This document shows, in pieces, positions 12 through 6,013 of a stretch of DNA of 6,013 nt. Source of the DNA: J088 sp003695505 [NCBI: Candidatus Dadabacteria bacterium] (GTDB lineage Bacteria > J088); NCBI GenBank assembly GCA_003695505.1, contig RFIY01000342.1, positions 1-6,013 of the forward strand, in the 5' to 3' direction. The notes beneath the pieces were generated by a model that was not told the DNA's origin, searched no databases, and saw nothing but the letters and a program-made list of their open reading frames with translations. How positions within the stretch are numbered: the first letter of the stretch is position 1; every line of letters begins with the position of its first letter. A program made the position numbers and the translations under genes.

Positions 12-28
12 ATCAGAAAAATTCTGAT
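12..28. promoter_or_regulatory. 17-bp perfect palindrome, candidate operator
   Basis: ATCAGAA and TTCTGAT form a perfect 7-bp inverted repeat around an AAA centre. It lies about 85 bp upstream of the start codon at 113, in the only AT-rich stretch before the plus-strand acyltransferase gene. The arms are too AT-rich and the loop too short for a convincing terminator, so a binding site for a dimeric regulator is the better reading. It does not match the canonical lux-box pattern (CTG-N10-CAG). I could not place a convincing sigma-70 promoter with proper spacing next to it. The site is seen directly; its role is inferred. Confidence 0.4.
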
Positions 29-96: not shown

Positions 97-105
97 AAAG
101 GAGGT
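97..105 (+). promoter_or_regulatory. Shine-Dalgarno site deciding the start at 113
   Basis: AAAGGAGGT is nearly a full anti-SD complement. The GGAGG core ends 8 nt before the ATG at 113, which is ideal, but only 2 nt before the in-frame TTG at 107. This favours ATG 113 over the TTG that would give two extra residues. Confidence 0.85.
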
Positions 106-112
106 CTTGCCG

Positions 113-832
113 ATGCTACAGGAACAGTCGTACAAGCTGGCGCAATGTGACGGATTCTCGATCTGGCGCGTAGGTGTCGATCGAGCGGAGGACGTGACAC
201 GCTTCGTGCACGGCGTCTATCACGAGCGCTTTGCCGCGCACCCGGACTGGGATGGTCCGTCGGAACTGGACAAGATGCTTCGCGACGATCTCGGTACCTT
301 GCCCTATTCGGCAATCATCAGTGCGTTTGACGAGGCCGGGCGGGCGCTGGCGACGGTACGTGTCATTCGCAAGGTGCCGTTTCGGCCGCTGCCGACGGAG
401 CGCGATTTTGGGCTCGATTTTTCGGAGATTGCCAGGAAACGCGGTCTGGAGGTTCACGAACTGTTCGAAATCGCACGCTTCGCGAAAAGCGATCGGGCAA
501 TCGTGGCGGCTGGTCTGGACGAACGCGCCGGTCATCAGGCCGTTGATCGCGTCCTTGAGCAGGCGGTTCGCGCGACAGCCTACGATCCGCAAAACGCGTG
601 GTGCGCGTCGATCGACAATGTCGTGCTTCAATTGCTTAGAAAGAAGGGTTTTGTATTCGATGCGGTTGCACCCTCGACGGTGTACCTCGGGTCGGATACC
701 ACACCGGCTCTGCTACCCGTTTCTGTCTGGGCGGCACATCAGAAGGCGAAACGCGGGTCCGTCGCGACAGCGGCGCGCAAACGCGCGCAGGCGCGGCGAC
801 CGACCGGCCTCGCCGCGGTTGGGAGCCTCTGA
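113..832 (+). CDS. LuxI/FeeM-like GNAT-fold N-acyltransferase
   Basis: This 239-residue protein resembles the superfamily that includes acyl-homoserine-lactone synthases, FeeM N-acyl amino acid synthases and the PEP-CTERM/exosortase-associated acyltransferases. These transfer an acyl chain from acyl-ACP or acyl-CoA to an amino group. Visible hallmarks are an N-terminal R-F-V-x-x-V-Y-x-E-R segment (30-39), the strand TVRVIR (81-86), LPTERDF (93-99), FEIARFAKS (118-126; compare the E-x-S/A-R-F strand of LuxI/FeeM proteins) and a GNAT-like C-terminal part ending in RKKGF (176-180). The last 30 residues form a basic tail rich in Arg, Lys and Ala that is probably disordered. There is no signal peptide, so it is likely cytosolic. 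Two nucleotides separate its stop from the next start, so the pair is almost certainly co-transcribed. The superfamily is fairly clear; the amine and acyl substrates are unknown, and a signalling product is only one option. No exosortase or PEP-CTERM gene is in the window. Confidence 0.72.
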   Translation: MLQEQSYKLAQCDGFSIWRVGVDRAEDVTRFVHGVYHERFAAHPDWDGPSELDKMLRDDLGTLPYSAIISAFDEAGRALATVRVIRKVPFRPLPTERDFGLDFSEIARKRGLEVHELFEIARFAKSDRAIVAAGLDERAGHQAVDRVLEQAVRATAYDPQNAWCASIDNVVLQLLRKKGFVFDAVAPSTVYLGSDTTPALLPVSVWAAHQKAKRGSVATAARKRAQARRPTGLAAVGSL

Positions 833-834
833 CG

Positions 835-1254
835 ATGCCAGACAGGTCATCAGAGCCGGTGTTGCTTGTTGACCGGGATGCGGGCAGTACGGCGTTGTTG
901 CGCGCCGTGCTGCCCGCATCAGCGGTGGTGGAGCGTGCGGACGTTATCTGGGTTGGCCCATGGCTGCGGCGGCTGCGGCCGCGGCTGATCTTCGTCGAGC
1001 CGGCAGGATTCAACGTCGTGCCGCGTTCGGTCGCGATGGCCGTATCCATGCTGGCGCGATCGGTACATCCGGTGCCGGTCTATTTGTTCAGCATCCTCGA
1101 AACCGATGTGCTGGAACGGTTGTCTGCCGAATACCAATGCGCGGGCTTCCTGTCCAAACATCCCGCGATTGAAGATCAGCAGCGGCGCGCCATCGATCAG
1201 GCCTTGCATGTACCGCGGCGACACGTTGCCCAGGTGGCGTTCCAGCCGATATAA
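835..1254 (+). CDS. Stand-alone receiver-like protein with Glu at the phosphosite
   Basis: This 139-residue protein fits a CheY-like receiver fold with no output domain. The pattern is beta-1 VLLVDRD (9-15), beta-3 LIFVEP (51-56), beta-4 VYLFS (82-86) and beta-5 GFLSKHP (104-110). The conserved beta-4 Ser/Thr (S86) and beta-5 Lys (K108) are present. One acidic residue of the Mg pocket is kept (D13), but the usual second Asp is R14, and the phosphoacceptor Asp is replaced by E55 (codon GAG, 997-999). The D13-to-E55 spacing matches a normal receiver. The Glu may mimic a constitutively phosphorylated state, or the protein may be a phosphorylation-independent pseudo-receiver. Its start lies 2 nt after the acyltransferase stop, with GGGAG at 821-825 as the Shine-Dalgarno site. 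It may act as a partner or regulator of the acyltransferase; that is inference. Sequence similarity is low, so a remote Rossmann-like alternative is possible. Confidence 0.65.
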   Translation: MPDRSSEPVLLVDRDAGSTALLRAVLPASAVVERADVIWVGPWLRRLRPRLIFVEPAGFNVVPRSVAMAVSMLARSVHPVPVYLFSILETDVLERLSAEYQCAGFLSKHPAIEDQQRRAIDQALHVPRRHVAQVAFQPI

Positions 1255-1291
1255 CAAGCGTCCTTGCCGTTTGCAAAGACGGAAATGCAAC

Positions 1292-1326
1292 AGCGCGCCG
1301 TCCATTGGGGACGGCGCGCTTCTTTT
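1292..1326 (+). terminator. Intrinsic terminator after the acyltransferase/receiver pair
   Basis: A perfect 12-bp GC-rich stem (1292-1303 pairs with 1309-1320) with a 5-nt loop is followed by a T-rich run, TTCTTTTG. It lies 38 nt past the stop of the receiver-like gene, in the convergent gap before the FKBP gene. The opposite strand has only a weak T-run after the stem, so it should work mainly for plus-strand transcripts and perhaps partly for the FKBP transcript. Confidence 0.88.
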
Positions 1327-1351: not shown

Positions 1352-2092
1352 TCAGTGCGCCTGCTGATCCTTGACGACTTCGATCAGTTCTACCTCGAAC
1401 TGCAGTGCCTCATTCGGACCGATCCGCGGCGGCGCGCCTCGTTCCCCGTAGGCCAGCTCGGGTGGCAGGTAAATGCGCCACTTTGAACCGGGCTTCATCA
1501 TTTGCAGCGCTTCTGTCCAGCCGGGAATTACGCCCCCAACGGGAAATACAGCGGGTTCGCCGCGATCATAGCTGCTGTCGAATACGGTGCCATCGACGAG
1601 CTGGCCGCGGTAGTGCACCTTGACCATGTCGTTGGCGGTCGGGGGCGTGCCACTGCCTTCTCGCTCGATCTTGTAAAGCAGGCCGCTGTCCGACTTTTTG
1701 ACACCTTCCTGCGCTTCGATCATGGCCAGGAATTTCTTGCTTTTCTCGGCATTGACAGTGGTCGCCTCGGCAAACTGCTTCATTTGCGCCTTCTGCATAT
1801 CTGCCTGGCGGGCCTCCATGCGGCTGCGGAAATCCTGCATTGCCGCCATGATTTGTTGCTGCGTCAGTTGTGGAGGCTGGCCTGAGTAGCCATCGCGAAA
1901 ACCGGCGGCGAAGGCGTCGGCATTGAGCGTCGGGTCCTGTTGAGCCAGTCGCATACCCAGATCGTGCCCGATCGTGTAGGCAATGGTCTGGCTGTTGTCT
2001 TCCGTGTTGAGCGTGAATGAATCGCCCTTCTGACAGGCGGCGGTGGATACCAGTGCGGCGACCAGCAGCGTGGCGCGTACCGAAAACTTCAT
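1352..2092 (-). CDS. FKBP-type peptidyl-prolyl isomerase lipoprotein (Mip/FkpA-like)
   Basis: This 246-residue protein catalyses cis-trans isomerisation of Xaa-Pro bonds and acts as a folding helper in the envelope. It begins with a short signal peptide ending in S-T-A-A-C with Cys20 as the probable lipidation site. Thr at -3 is less usual than Leu or Val. Residues 30-130 form the helical dimerisation domain (FKBP N-terminal type), rich in Gln, Ala, Met and Lys. The FKBP domain runs from about 135 to 240. Residues lining the FKBP12 pocket are all kept: Y161, F171-D172 in VFDSS, F183, V188-I189 and W192 in GVIPGW, Y215 in LAYG, and F232. It should therefore be catalytically active. Length and layout match the Mip/FkpA family; which of these symbols applies cannot be decided here. 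Neither AGG (gap 12 nt) nor GAGAA (gap 3 nt) upstream of the ATG is an ideal Shine-Dalgarno site. It lies 97 nt downstream of the TPR-like gene on the same strand, with a possible promoter between them. Confidence 0.95.
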   Translation of the reverse strand: MKFSVRATLLVAALVSTAACQKGDSFTLNTEDNSQTIAYTIGHDLGMRLAQQDPTLNADAFAAGFRDGYSGQPPQLTQQQIMAAMQDFRSRMEARQADMQKAQMKQFAEATTVNAEKSKKFLAMIEAQEGVKKSDSGLLYKIEREGSGTPPTANDMVKVHYRGQLVDGTVFDSSYDRGEPAVFPVGGVIPGWTEALQMMKPGSKWRIYLPPELAYGERGAPPRIGPNEALQFEVELIEVVKDQQAH

Positions 2093-3186: not shown

Positions 3187-4215
3187 TCAGGGCGTCGCGT
3201 CGAGCCACGGCGCCAGCACCTGTTCGCCCCATTCCCAGAGGCGTCGACCGTTGTTGGGGTCGGTGGCTTCTGGAGATGGCGCACGTCGCCGTTTCATATG
3301 CAGATAGATTCCGGTTTCGTGTTCGATTTCGGGTGACGCGGCAAGCCAGAGCACGGGTTCGGCGGCGACGGTCGGGGCGTTGAACATCCAACGCATCGCC
3401 GGGCGCAGGATCGGTTCGAGCCAGGCCGGCGCATCGCGTGCGATGCTGGAGGCGACCGGGCCCGGGCAGAGCGAATGCACCGCGACGTCGGGATGCTGCG
3501 CGGCTGCCAGCCGCCGGGTCAGCTCGGAGACAAACGTCAGAAGCGCCAGCTTCGAGACGCCGTACTGTTTCATGCCGTCGCGCAAGCCGTAGGGGCGAAA
3601 CGCCCCTGGTTCGGGCCAGTCGAGGGCGCGGGCCGAACGATGCGCTTCGGAAGCGACGAACACCAGACGCGCGGGCCGTCCATCTGGTGGCTGACCGGCC
3701 CAGGTCGCATTGGGAATCGTGCCGGAGCCAAGCAGAAGCCGTACGAGAAGATGGTTGGCCAGGTAGTGCACCGTGAACATGATCTCGAATCCCTGGGCTC
3801 CGGCATATCCCTGGCGTGGCATCAGGCCGGCATTGAAGATCGCGGCATCGAAGACATCGCCCGCGGAGGCCAGCCGTGCCGCGAGCGATGCAACGCTGTC
3901 CAGATCGCCGAGATCGACCTGTTCCATCCGGATGCGCGGGTTTCCGGTCGTTTCCGTGAGCCGCGCGGCCGTTTCCGGAATCCCGCTGCGACAGGCCAGC
4001 ACGAGGCTCGCACCGCGCTTTGCAAGCGCTTCGGCAATGGCATAGCCAAGGCCCGCGTTGGCGCCGGTGATCAGGATCTTTTGCGCGGACAGATCCAGAT
4101 CAGCAGGAAGCGGCACGATGTCTGACCGCTGGGTCAGGCGGTCGAGGATGCCCGTCACGGTTGCGGTCAGCGGATTGTCGTGACCCAGAAAGGAGGCACG
4201 GTCACCGGAAGTCAT
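3187..4215 (-). CDS. Short-chain dehydrogenase/reductase (retinol-dehydrogenase-like)
   Basis: This 342-residue protein is an NAD(P)-dependent oxidoreductase of the classical SDR superfamily, interconverting an alcohol and a carbonyl on an unknown substrate. After a 40-residue leader come the Rossmann motif TGANAGLG (50-57), the acidic VDL (100-102), NAG (128-130), the catalytic Ser in VASEA (S189), the Y-x-x-x-K pair (Y218, K222) and PGPV (251-254). The overall layout resembles retinol dehydrogenase/protochlorophyllide reductase relatives. The asparagine of the SDR catalytic tetrad, usually in an N-H-L-G-type segment, appears to be H150 (codon CAC) in F-T-V-H-Y-L. R76 after the second strand may favour NADPH, but this is uncertain. 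The ATG overlaps the stop of the sulfotransferase gene as ATGA and has AAGGAG 7 nt upstream, so translation is coupled. The C-terminal 40 residues are charged and extend past the core fold. Confidence 0.92.
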   Translation of the reverse strand: MTSGDRASFLGHDNPLTATVTGILDRLTQRSDIVPLPADLDLSAQKILITGANAGLGYAIAEALAKRGASLVLACRSGIPETAARLTETTGNPRIRMEQVDLGDLDSVASLAARLASAGDVFDAAIFNAGLMPRQGYAGAQGFEIMFTVHYLANHLLVRLLLGSGTIPNATWAGQPPDGRPARLVFVASEAHRSARALDWPEPGAFRPYGLRDGMKQYGVSKLALLTFVSELTRRLAAAQHPDVAVHSLCPGPVASSIARDAPAWLEPILRPAMRWMFNAPTVAAEPVLWLAASPEIEHETGIYLHMKRRRAPSPEATDPNNGRRLWEWGEQVLAPWLDATP

Positions 4216-5471
4216 GCGTTTGCTCCTTGAGCAGGGGCGATGCCATATCGTTCGTGGTAGTCGGCGAATATGTCGGCAATGGTGTTCGCGTCGAGTCCGA
4301 AGTCCTCGAGCGCGTAGACGTGGCGGCCATAACGGTCCTTGCGATTACGCGTGCGCGCCTGCTCCTGGGCATCGGTCCAGTCCAGCGCGTCGATCCCCGC
4401 CTGTTCGTAGATCGAACGGATCGTCCGCACGGGATCAGCGACGAGATCGCTGTAGCGTACGTCGATCACGCGTGTTTCGCGGTCGGAACTTGCGCGATCC
4501 CGTGCGGCCTTGTCCAGTACATAGGCGATCTTTCGCTGCCAGTGGCGACCAACTTCAATCGGATCAACGTGATCGCTGAAGATGCCGCATCCATGCGCAA
4601 CCATGCTGCAAAACGAACCCAGGACCTCTGTCAGATGACGGTGGGTCTGGATCACGAGCGCTTCCGGGAACTGGTCGAGCAGTGCGTCGAGGTGTTCGAT
4701 GTGGTTCGGCGTCTTCAGGATCCAGTGGCTGCGTGGTCGCAGCCATTGCAGCAGGCGCAGCGTGCGCCGCAGCCAGCCGTAGGCCGGCGTATGGTCGGCG
4801 GCTTCGGCCCAGGCCGCGTAACGCGGAACGTGCAACATGGCCTCGGCGGTCTGGCTCAGAAAGGCCATGTCCAGCAGCAGGATCTCTTCTTCGGGAGCGT
4901 CGGGTTCGATCGGATGGATCGCGAAAAAGTCGGGCGCCAGGTAACGCAGCGCCGCGGTGGATTGACGCGCGACGCGTCGGCGTCGGTGCGATTGATCGTG
5001 CCGCTCACCACGCAACGGCGCCGGATTCAGTGCTTCCCAGCTTGGCAGCCAGCGCGCATCGGGGTGCGCAGCCAGCAGGCGCTGGAGCAGGGTGGTGCCC
5101 GTGCGCGGAATACCGGCGATGATCAGCATCGGCGGCAGGGACGTGCGCTCGATCTCTGGATGGGCGCGGTAGAGGGCGTCGATGCGCAGGCGGTTCGCGA
5201 CGAGGTTCACCAGCCGCGTCTGCTGGATGACGCGGCCGAGGGCATGTAGCCGGGCCTCCTCGTTGATCGACTGTACAAGGACTTCCAGCGGCTCGACGAA
5301 GGACTCATCCGAAAACCGCCGCTCTCCCGTGGCGCGGCGAGCGCGGTCGATGATTGCGGATGCCGACAGCTTTGGCAGCAGGGGCGTCGGCGCGACGCGG
5401 TTGAACATGCGGATCGCGCGCGGACGGGCGGGATGGGCGTAGTCTCGCGAGGTCACGCGCTCCGGATTCAT
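4212..5471 (-). CDS. PAPS-dependent sulfotransferase family protein
   Basis: This 419-residue protein is predicted to transfer a sulfuryl group from PAPS to a hydroxyl or amine acceptor (Sulfotransfer_3-type family). The 5'-phosphosulfate loop is GIPRTGTTLLQ (120-130), followed by the family-typical W-E-A-L-N-P (145-150). The 3'-phosphate site is seen in LKTPNHIEHL (252-261) and ALVIQTHRHLTEVLGS (271-286), with R278 and S286 as likely 3'-phosphate contacts. A conserved tail, R-N-R-K-D-R-Y-G-R-H-V-Y and LEDFGL (375-393), is also present. There is no signal peptide or membrane segment, so it is probably cytosolic. The frame extends 29 codons further upstream into the neighbouring gene, but ATG 5471 is chosen because it overlaps the upstream stop as ATGA and has GAGGAG 8 nt before it. 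It sits between a DUF1214-like gene and an SDR gene. Acceptor identity is unknown, and some members of this family have never been shown to have sulfotransferase activity. Confidence 0.9.
   Translation of the reverse strand: MNPERVTSRDYAHPARPRAIRMFNRVAPTPLLPKLSASAIIDRARRATGERRFSDESFVEPLEVLVQSINEEARLHALGRVIQQTRLVNLVANRLRIDALYRAHPEIERTSLPPMLIIAGIPRTGTTLLQRLLAAHPDARWLPSWEALNPAPLRGERHDQSHRRRRVARQSTAALRYLAPDFFAIHPIEPDAPEEEILLLDMAFLSQTAEAMLHVPRYAAWAEAADHTPAYGWLRRTLRLLQWLRPRSHWILKTPNHIEHLDALLDQFPEALVIQTHRHLTEVLGSFCSMVAHGCGIFSDHVDPIEVGRHWQRKIAYVLDKAARDRASSDRETRVIDVRYSDLVADPVRTIRSIYEQAGIDALDWTDAQEQARTRNRKDRYGRHVYALEDFGLDANTIADIFADYHERYGIAPAQGANA
4223..4228 (-). promoter_or_regulatory. Shine-Dalgarno site for the SDR gene
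   Basis: AAGGAG on the minus strand lies 7 nt before ATG 4215, inside the 3' end of the sulfotransferase gene. With the ATGA overlap it indicates re-initiation or coupled translation. Confidence 0.8.
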
Positions 5472-6013
5472 CGGTTGAGCTCCTCGCGCAGCGCATTCAG
5501 TTTGACGACACGGGTGGCCGGTACGGGTCGCTCGTTGGTGTGAATCCAGCGCCAGCACATCGTGCCCTGATCGTGTCCGGCCGTCTCGAGCCAGTTTGGA
5601 TGGCCCGGGTCATCATGGGCAACGATGACGCGCACCGAGCCGTCCGGTTCGTAGTGGGCGGTGTGCTTGTTGATGTGTATGCGATGGTAGCGGTAGTCGA
5701 GCGACTCCATCCAGTAATTGTTGAGCTGAAAGTTCCAGTACGGGCAGGGGTCCGGGACCGGTGTCTCGATGACCAGCGCCTCGTCCGGCGCGAGGCGCCA
5801 GTGACTCATGTAGTACGCGATGTTGGGGTCGCCGCCGGCGGCAATCGATACTTCGGGATCGAACAGCGGAAGCTCGTTCGTATGTTTCTGAAAGTCACGG
5901 GACCACTTCGCAAACAGCGCGGATGCACCGGCGACCAGTAGCGACGCCTGCCGCAGTCCGTCGACGAGCTGCTCTGGCCCCAGCGGTTCGGGCTGGTCCG
6001 GACCGTTCAGGCA
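5468..6013 (-). CDS. DUF1214-like protein, C-terminal part (5' end beyond window)
   Basis: The frame is open from the right edge of the window to the stop at 5468, giving 181 residues; the true start lies outside. The internal ATG at 5809 is not the start, because the 68 residues before it continue the same conserved protein, including FAKWSRDFQKHTNELPLF (34-51) and AAGGDPNIAYY (58-68). Further conserved-looking blocks are WRLAPDEALVIE (72-83), CPYWNFQLNNYWMESLDYRY (90-109), INKHTA (114-119) and VAHDDPGHPNWLETAGH (131-147). From memory these match the DUF1214 family as found beside sulfotransferase and SDR genes. The biochemical role of that domain is not established. The aromatic- and His-rich segments suggest a binding or active-site surface, which is inference. 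The stop overlaps the sulfotransferase ATG, so the three genes form one translationally coupled operon. Confidence 0.82.
   Translation of the reverse strand, partial: CLNGPDQPEPLGPEQLVDGLRQASLLVAGASALFAKWSRDFQKHTNELPLFDPEVSIAAGGDPNIAYYMSHWRLAPDEALVIETPVPDPCPYWNFQLNNYWMESLDYRYHRIHINKHTAHYEPDGSVRVIVAHDDPGHPNWLETAGHDQGTMCWRWIHTNERPVPATRVVKLNALREELNR
5480..5485 (-). promoter_or_regulatory. Shine-Dalgarno site deciding the sulfotransferase start
   Basis: GAGGAG on the minus strand lies 8 nt before ATG 5471, inside the last codons of the DUF1214-like gene. It supports this start over the in-frame ATG at 5558. Confidence 0.8.

Follow-up and report, generated by a model that had tools for sequence, protein, structure and literature searches.

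A putative FeeM-type N-acyltransferase gene coupled to a predicted pseudo-receiver that has lost its phosphoacceptor Asp

Why is a receiver-like protein with Glu at the phosphoacceptor position encoded directly behind a predicted N-acyltransferase, and could the one protein act on the other? This question is raised by two adjacent genes, here called AT and RR, in an entire 6013-base contig that we analyzed as a whole and refer to as the window. The source assembly comprises 2.83 Mb in 395 contigs, is 84.5% complete, and yielded no 16S sequence. Our preferred reading, to which we assign a rough probability of 0.4, is that RR is a phosphorylation-independent pseudo-receiver made together with AT, as a partner that would set the activity, location, or stability of the enzyme.

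Both open reading frames were confirmed at the positions given in the original prediction, on one strand and 2 nt apart, as were residues D13, E55, S86, and K108 of RR (Table 1). The position-specific GC contents of AT (0.70/0.47/0.68) and RR (0.71/0.45/0.73) resemble those of the three other window genes that were checked. The antisense ORF over RR shows the same pattern as RR itself (0.72/0.42/0.71), so that for RR homology decides, rather than composition alone.

Table 1. Features of the window and their coordinates
Feature	Position	Strand	Details
Perfect inverted repeat, 7-nt arms, 3-nt spacer	12-28		84 nt 5' of AT; positions 1-1400 have 17 listed inverted repeats, including this one
Likely ribosome-binding site of AT, AAAGGAGG	97-104	+	Assigned by eye; 8 nt before ATG113
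AT, putative divergent FeeM-type N-acyltransferase (239 aa)	113-832	+	ATG113-TGA832
RR, predicted single-domain pseudo-receiver (139 aa)	835-1254	+	ATG835-TAA1254
ORF antisense to RR	919-1305	-	
Terminator-like hairpin, perfect 12-bp stem, loop of 5	1292-1320		T-rich tail TCTTTTGT on + strand
FKBP-type isomerase	1352-2092	-	Pfam/NCBIfam scan
Dehydrogenase, sulfotransferase, and DUF1214 genes	3187-6013	-	Ends overlapping

The pair had been described as a self-contained cassette closed by its own terminator. The hairpin pattern downstream of RR is real; a terminator scan over positions 1-1500 gave four sites against 1.4 expected. The hairpin sits between RR and FKBP, which converge and are 97 nt apart, so it need not belong to the pair alone. 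Nor need the pair be self-contained, because the contig starts only 112 nt before AT. Within these 112 nt, the inverted repeat is a possible operator. No second copy of it was found in 135,913 unmasked bases from the same genome, and no sigma-70-like promoter was found in positions 1-1500. The other recognized genes of the window are all on the minus strand and encode the FKBP-type protein, a TPR/TAtT-like protein with weak Pfam matches, a short-chain dehydrogenase, a sulfotransferase, and a DUF1214 protein whose gene is cut by the contig end. The last three genes perhaps form an operon acting on a hydrophobic compound.

We then asked what AT is. It had been read as a LuxI/FeeM-like acyltransferase, and the FeeM part of that description stands as a weak similarity above chance. 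FeeM (PF21926) is the top Pfam match of AT, at E 0.0021 and 18.3 bits, below the cut-off of 27, and NCBIfam gives no match at E up to 1. A profile built from 18 shorter FeeM-like proteins scores AT at 19.7 bits, compared to at most 12.7 bits in 5000 shuffles. Run with filters off, this profile ranks AT first when compared to 1282 ORFs from other loci (E 3.9e-5; the next ORF has E 0.31). A profile of 12 longer FeeM-like proteins gives 9.4 bits for AT versus 8.2 for shuffles, the profile of all 30 is not above chance (10.2 versus 10.6 bits for the best shuffle), and two sub-groups of the 18, used as profiles, score AT below the best shuffles. With HMMER default filters, none of these FeeM-like profiles reports AT. 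In pairwise comparison, the best single match is L145, a FeeM and cyclic-nucleotide-binding protein, which stands above 300 of 300 shuffles; among the 12 of 30 pairwise matches listed, six were reached by two or fewer of 300 shuffles.

The residues of AT present a similarly mixed picture. AT shares D58, R83, E119, and R122 with 21, 21, 12, and 14 of the 30 FeeM-like proteins, respectively, and has no Arg at alignment column 32, Gly at 40, Asp at 87, or Tyr at 175, which are present in 21, 26, 22, and 29 of the 30. These missing residues, together with the several profiles that do not exceed shuffles, make the activity of AT uncertain. Overall, the assignment of AT as a divergent FeeM-type N-acyltransferase is moderately supported by sequence comparison.

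Other identities for AT were rejected. The LuxI half of the original description did not hold, as AT has no match to PF00765 at E up to 1 and is not taken for a LuxI autoinducer synthase. The PEP-CTERM/exosortase acyltransferase family TIGR03694 was likewise rejected, since no NCBIfam match appears at that threshold. The only match among PDB sequences (E 0.33) and the only PHROGs match (E 0.091) were attributed to chance, and PADLOC returned no match. Single-sequence AlphaFold models of AT and RR have mean pLDDT values of 40.5 and 40.9, respectively, and are uninterpretable, that of RR also with regard to the (beta-alpha)5 fold of a pseudo-receiver; it has no PDB match at E 0.001 or better. 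The PDB matches of both models were dismissed as meaningless.

For RR, the proposed receiver homology was borne out. A profile of nine canonical receivers, with RR excluded, scores RR at 25.4 bits, compared to at most 11.4 bits in 5000 shuffles of RR, and two receivers from the same genome match RR at E 4.8e-5 and 7.1e-4 with HMMER. The relationship is distant: tblastn at E 1 does not link RR to these two best HMMER relatives, RR has no match to Pfam Response_reg (PF00072) at E 1, and a phmmer search of PDB sequences with RR is empty at E 10. Membership in PF00072 is clear for all six RR relatives scanned. The nine relatives were collected with a three-sequence alignment searched against 386 genomes, at E 1e-18 or better. 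This search returned four places in the genome of the window, one of them RR, and six spread over five other genomes.

These nine relatives appear as a subfamily of single-domain receivers that share an I/L-G/W/F pair in alpha2; eight of them carry Tyr or Phe before a Ser at the Thr position. The subfamily spans the genome of the window, with three members besides RR, and the five other genomes (loci L002, L003, L164 at 6367-6762, L155-L159, and L161). One same-genome relative adjoins a chemosensory-like cluster (L103 12632-19381, L165) containing hybrid kinase, CheB-, CheA-, MCP-, and CheR-like genes, all named by eye.

To place the pair in a wider context, we searched for AT, for RR, and for the two together. 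Within the source genome, AT matches only itself at E 10. No second genome with the pair emerged, and outside the source no credible relative of AT was found in sets of 98, 386, 369, 20, and 20 genomes; the sets of 98 and 386 extend across the domain, include the source genome, and apparently overlap, and the set of 369 represents the class, presumably Gammaproteobacteria, to which a Salinisphaeraceae MAG belongs. The empty results from the two sets of 20 had no positive control and carry little weight. The genomes compared in the 98-genome set share only the domain with the source, and a search restricted to the class of the source gave back the source alone, so this negative result says little about close relatives. 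A genome-contig pattern scan, a viral-contig pattern scan, and a plasmid tblastn gave nothing usable for AT, and RR had no match in plasmids or viral contigs.

Six weak AT matches, five among the 369 genomes and one among the 386, were taken for chance. The frames at three of these loci (L098, L100, and L101) resemble chance ORFs when read by eye, and profiles detected neither a FeeM-like nor a receiver ORF in these or in the other three loci (L099, L102, and L123), in a search in which default-filter FeeM profiles miss AT itself. The tblastn matches of AT to L098 (E 3.6e-4) and L102 (E 0.006), over 54 and 85 residues, were judged to be chance as well.

FeeM-like genes themselves are readily found, with PF21926 above its cut-off in 70 of the 369 genomes. 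No receiver ORF was present within about 1.5 kb on either side of the FeeM-like gene in the 30 loci that were listed and examined, three of which are shorter. Conversely, none of nine loci with related receivers (three in the same genome) contains a FeeM-like ORF by profile, with filters on or off, and tblastn with AT at E 1 is negative for all nine; these relatives are paralogues or distant homologues of RR, not orthologues. One FeeM-profile match, at L118, was rejected as a TPR and cyclic-nucleotide-binding protein rather than an acyltransferase. As a neighbor marker for related genomes, FKBP was taxonomically uninformative: of its 523 matches, the 80 named loci kept come from many phyla, and none is accompanied by AT or RR by tblastn at 1e-3. 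Together, the counts of 0 of 30 and 0 of 9 indicate that it is uncommon in this sample for a receiver to neighbor a FeeM-like gene, and the AT-RR pairing may be private to an unsampled lineage.

This distribution bears on the best-surviving alternative, in which AT and RR are merely co-transcribed, AT makes a lipid or signal independently, and RR acts elsewhere, for example by occupying proteins that its phosphorylatable relatives from this genome would otherwise bind. Gene adjacency alone may mean just co-expression. The genome has three canonical relatives of RR, one of them next to the hybrid kinase and CheB-, CheA-, and CheR-like genes recognized by eye, and the sample holds no FeeM-receiver pairing elsewhere. 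Competition for binding within two-component systems is, moreover, among the roles discussed for pseudo-receivers in the sections consulted of a 2025 review (PMC12632262). We nevertheless consider this alternative somewhat unlikely in view of the coupling of AT and RR across only 2 nt. An arrangement of two genes with so short a spacer often reflects a shared role.

We next compared the residues of RR with those of its relatives. Position 55, the phosphoacceptor, is Asp in all nine relatives and Glu in RR, and position 14, the metal ligand DD2, is Asp in all nine and Arg in RR. In contrast to these two sites, D13, S86, and K108 are common to all 10 proteins, and RR also keeps an aromatic residue, F105, three before K108. 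RR additionally has Ile after S86 and about three extra residues after E55; these features and R14 were not part of the original prediction. Sections of the review define a pseudo-receiver as a receiver homologue that lacks one or more of the five active-site residues, and RR lacks two of them (R14, E55). Judged by its residues, RR is a pseudo-receiver by this definition.

The same source reports that DD2 is non-acidic in about 80% of pseudo-receivers. With both the phosphoacceptor Asp and the direct metal ligand DD2 lost, ordinary phosphorylation on Asp is not the expected mode of action for RR. The original prediction had offered a locked-on or a phosphorylation-independent receiver. Independence from Asp phosphorylation is now likelier than first proposed, because DD2 is lost too, and a locked-on state is possible only, given that the literature on Glu is mixed. 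According to the same sections, Glu partly activates many response regulators and has been disproved as the cause of activity in some pseudo-receivers (PMC12632262). In excerpts of two further papers, a constitutively active double mutant of CheY includes D13K (PMC11528121), and neither D13K nor D58E is activating in Myxococcus EpsW, which the authors read as a sign that EpsW does not function as a terminal regulator (PMC4671073). Overall, the observation on AT and RR is sound and slightly stronger than first reported.

The lost residues could also mark RR as a paralogue in decay, drifting after a duplication and already without DD2, the phosphoacceptor Asp, and other constraints. The branch of RR is by far the longest of the tree (3.7 versus a median of 1.01 changes per column, with uncertain placement), the usual Gly near alpha3 is gone, and the 25.4 bits of RR compare with at least 158.9 bits for the nine receivers on their own profile, which they match by construction. 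Such decay seems improbable to us, however, as the 139-codon frame is intact, RR retains S86, K108, and the aromatic residue three positions ahead of that Lys, and where receivers lack the Asp, Glu replaces it most often, as the review sections state (PMC12632262).

We return to RR as a phosphorylation-independent partner of AT. The arrangement of the genes, the receiver ancestry of RR, and its lost residues are established by the data above; in this proposal we infer the physical partnership, the direction of control, and the substrate. AT and RR would form a closely coupled two-gene unit in which AT would transfer a carrier-bound acyl chain to an amine. RR would descend from a single-domain response regulator, with the Ser, the Lys, and the aromatic residue through which the allosteric path normally runs still in place. 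Constitutive in shape, it would most likely partner the AT made with it and determine how active or stable the enzyme is, or where it is located. The amount of the AT-RR pair, rather than phosphorylation, would then be the switch. Gene adjacency is the basis for suggesting that RR perhaps binds or controls AT.

Domain fusions among FeeM-like proteins provide a precedent. A cNMP_binding domain is fused in six of the 10 FeeM-like proteins scanned among the 30 (L145, L133, L141, L139, L152, and L148). All six belong to the longer group, where they make up 6 of 12, and the four shorter proteins scanned have no cNMP_binding domain. These fusions indicate that FeeM-like enzymes do acquire regulatory partners. 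The cNMP-fused proteins are in their own right candidates for cNMP-regulated acyltransferases. For pseudo-receivers, the review sections document protein contacts as a mode of action and report ligand binding, including that of end products (PMC12632262). The reading of RR as a partner of AT is reasonable because FeeM-like enzymes gain regulatory modules and pseudo-receivers act by protein contacts or ligand binding.

A more specific and quite improbable version would be a protein-controlled acyl-signal module, in which a dedicated pseudo-receiver sets the output of a LuxI/FeeM-like enzyme by constitutive contact or by binding the acyl product. Two genes would then unite the making of the signal with its sensing, in the absence of a LuxR-type regulator. 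In the least probable alternative, RR would sense a ligand, either the acyl product or the substrate of AT, and provide feedback, comparable to the atypical regulators JadR1 and RedZ, which bind end products of the pathways they control. Reported ligand and end-product binding by pseudo-receivers (PMC12632262, in the sections consulted) and the altered residues directly after E55 favor it. Against it stand the DNA binding described for JadR1 and RedZ, the single-domain build of RR, which leaves no space for a DNA-binding part, and a single-sequence prediction in which a ligand pocket could not be modeled.

If the partner reading is true, a stand-alone pseudo-receiver with a single candidate target enzyme would constitute a simple two-protein system, in which the effector, the target, and the role of Glu could be tested directly. 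The review, as far as the sections consulted extend, calls the on/off switching of bacterial pseudo-receivers a mystery, and most of the cases it names there bind DNA as regulators or belong to larger proteins; its main text contains neither "single-domain" nor "acyltransferase" (PMC12632262). Among open-licence PMC papers, judged by titles and the openings of abstracts, we found no description of an acyltransferase and pseudo-receiver pair.

In comparison to known systems, AT-RR is a novel variant of known parts and not a new type of system. AT shares A80-T81-x-R83 and E119-x-x-R122 with the FeeM family PF21926, but falls below the curated cut-off and lacks the Arg, Gly, Asp, and Tyr at columns 32, 40, 87, and 175 that are common in the 30 loci. 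The FeeM-cNMP-binding fusions likewise couple a member of this broad acyltransferase family to a regulatory module; their regulator is a fused cNMP-binding domain, whereas the neighbor of AT is a separate receiver. Toward TIGR03694, AT shows a local similarity to one member, L149, that was reached by 1 of 300 shuffles, but a profile of L149 with the OlsB-like L150, L151, and L153 gives AT only 1.2 bits, below the best shuffles. RR, finally, is homologous to the single-domain receivers and pseudo-receivers of PF00072 and fits the published pseudo-receiver definition (PMC12632262), but it is too diverged for PF00072 itself and adjoins a putative acyltransferase gene rather than two-component genes.
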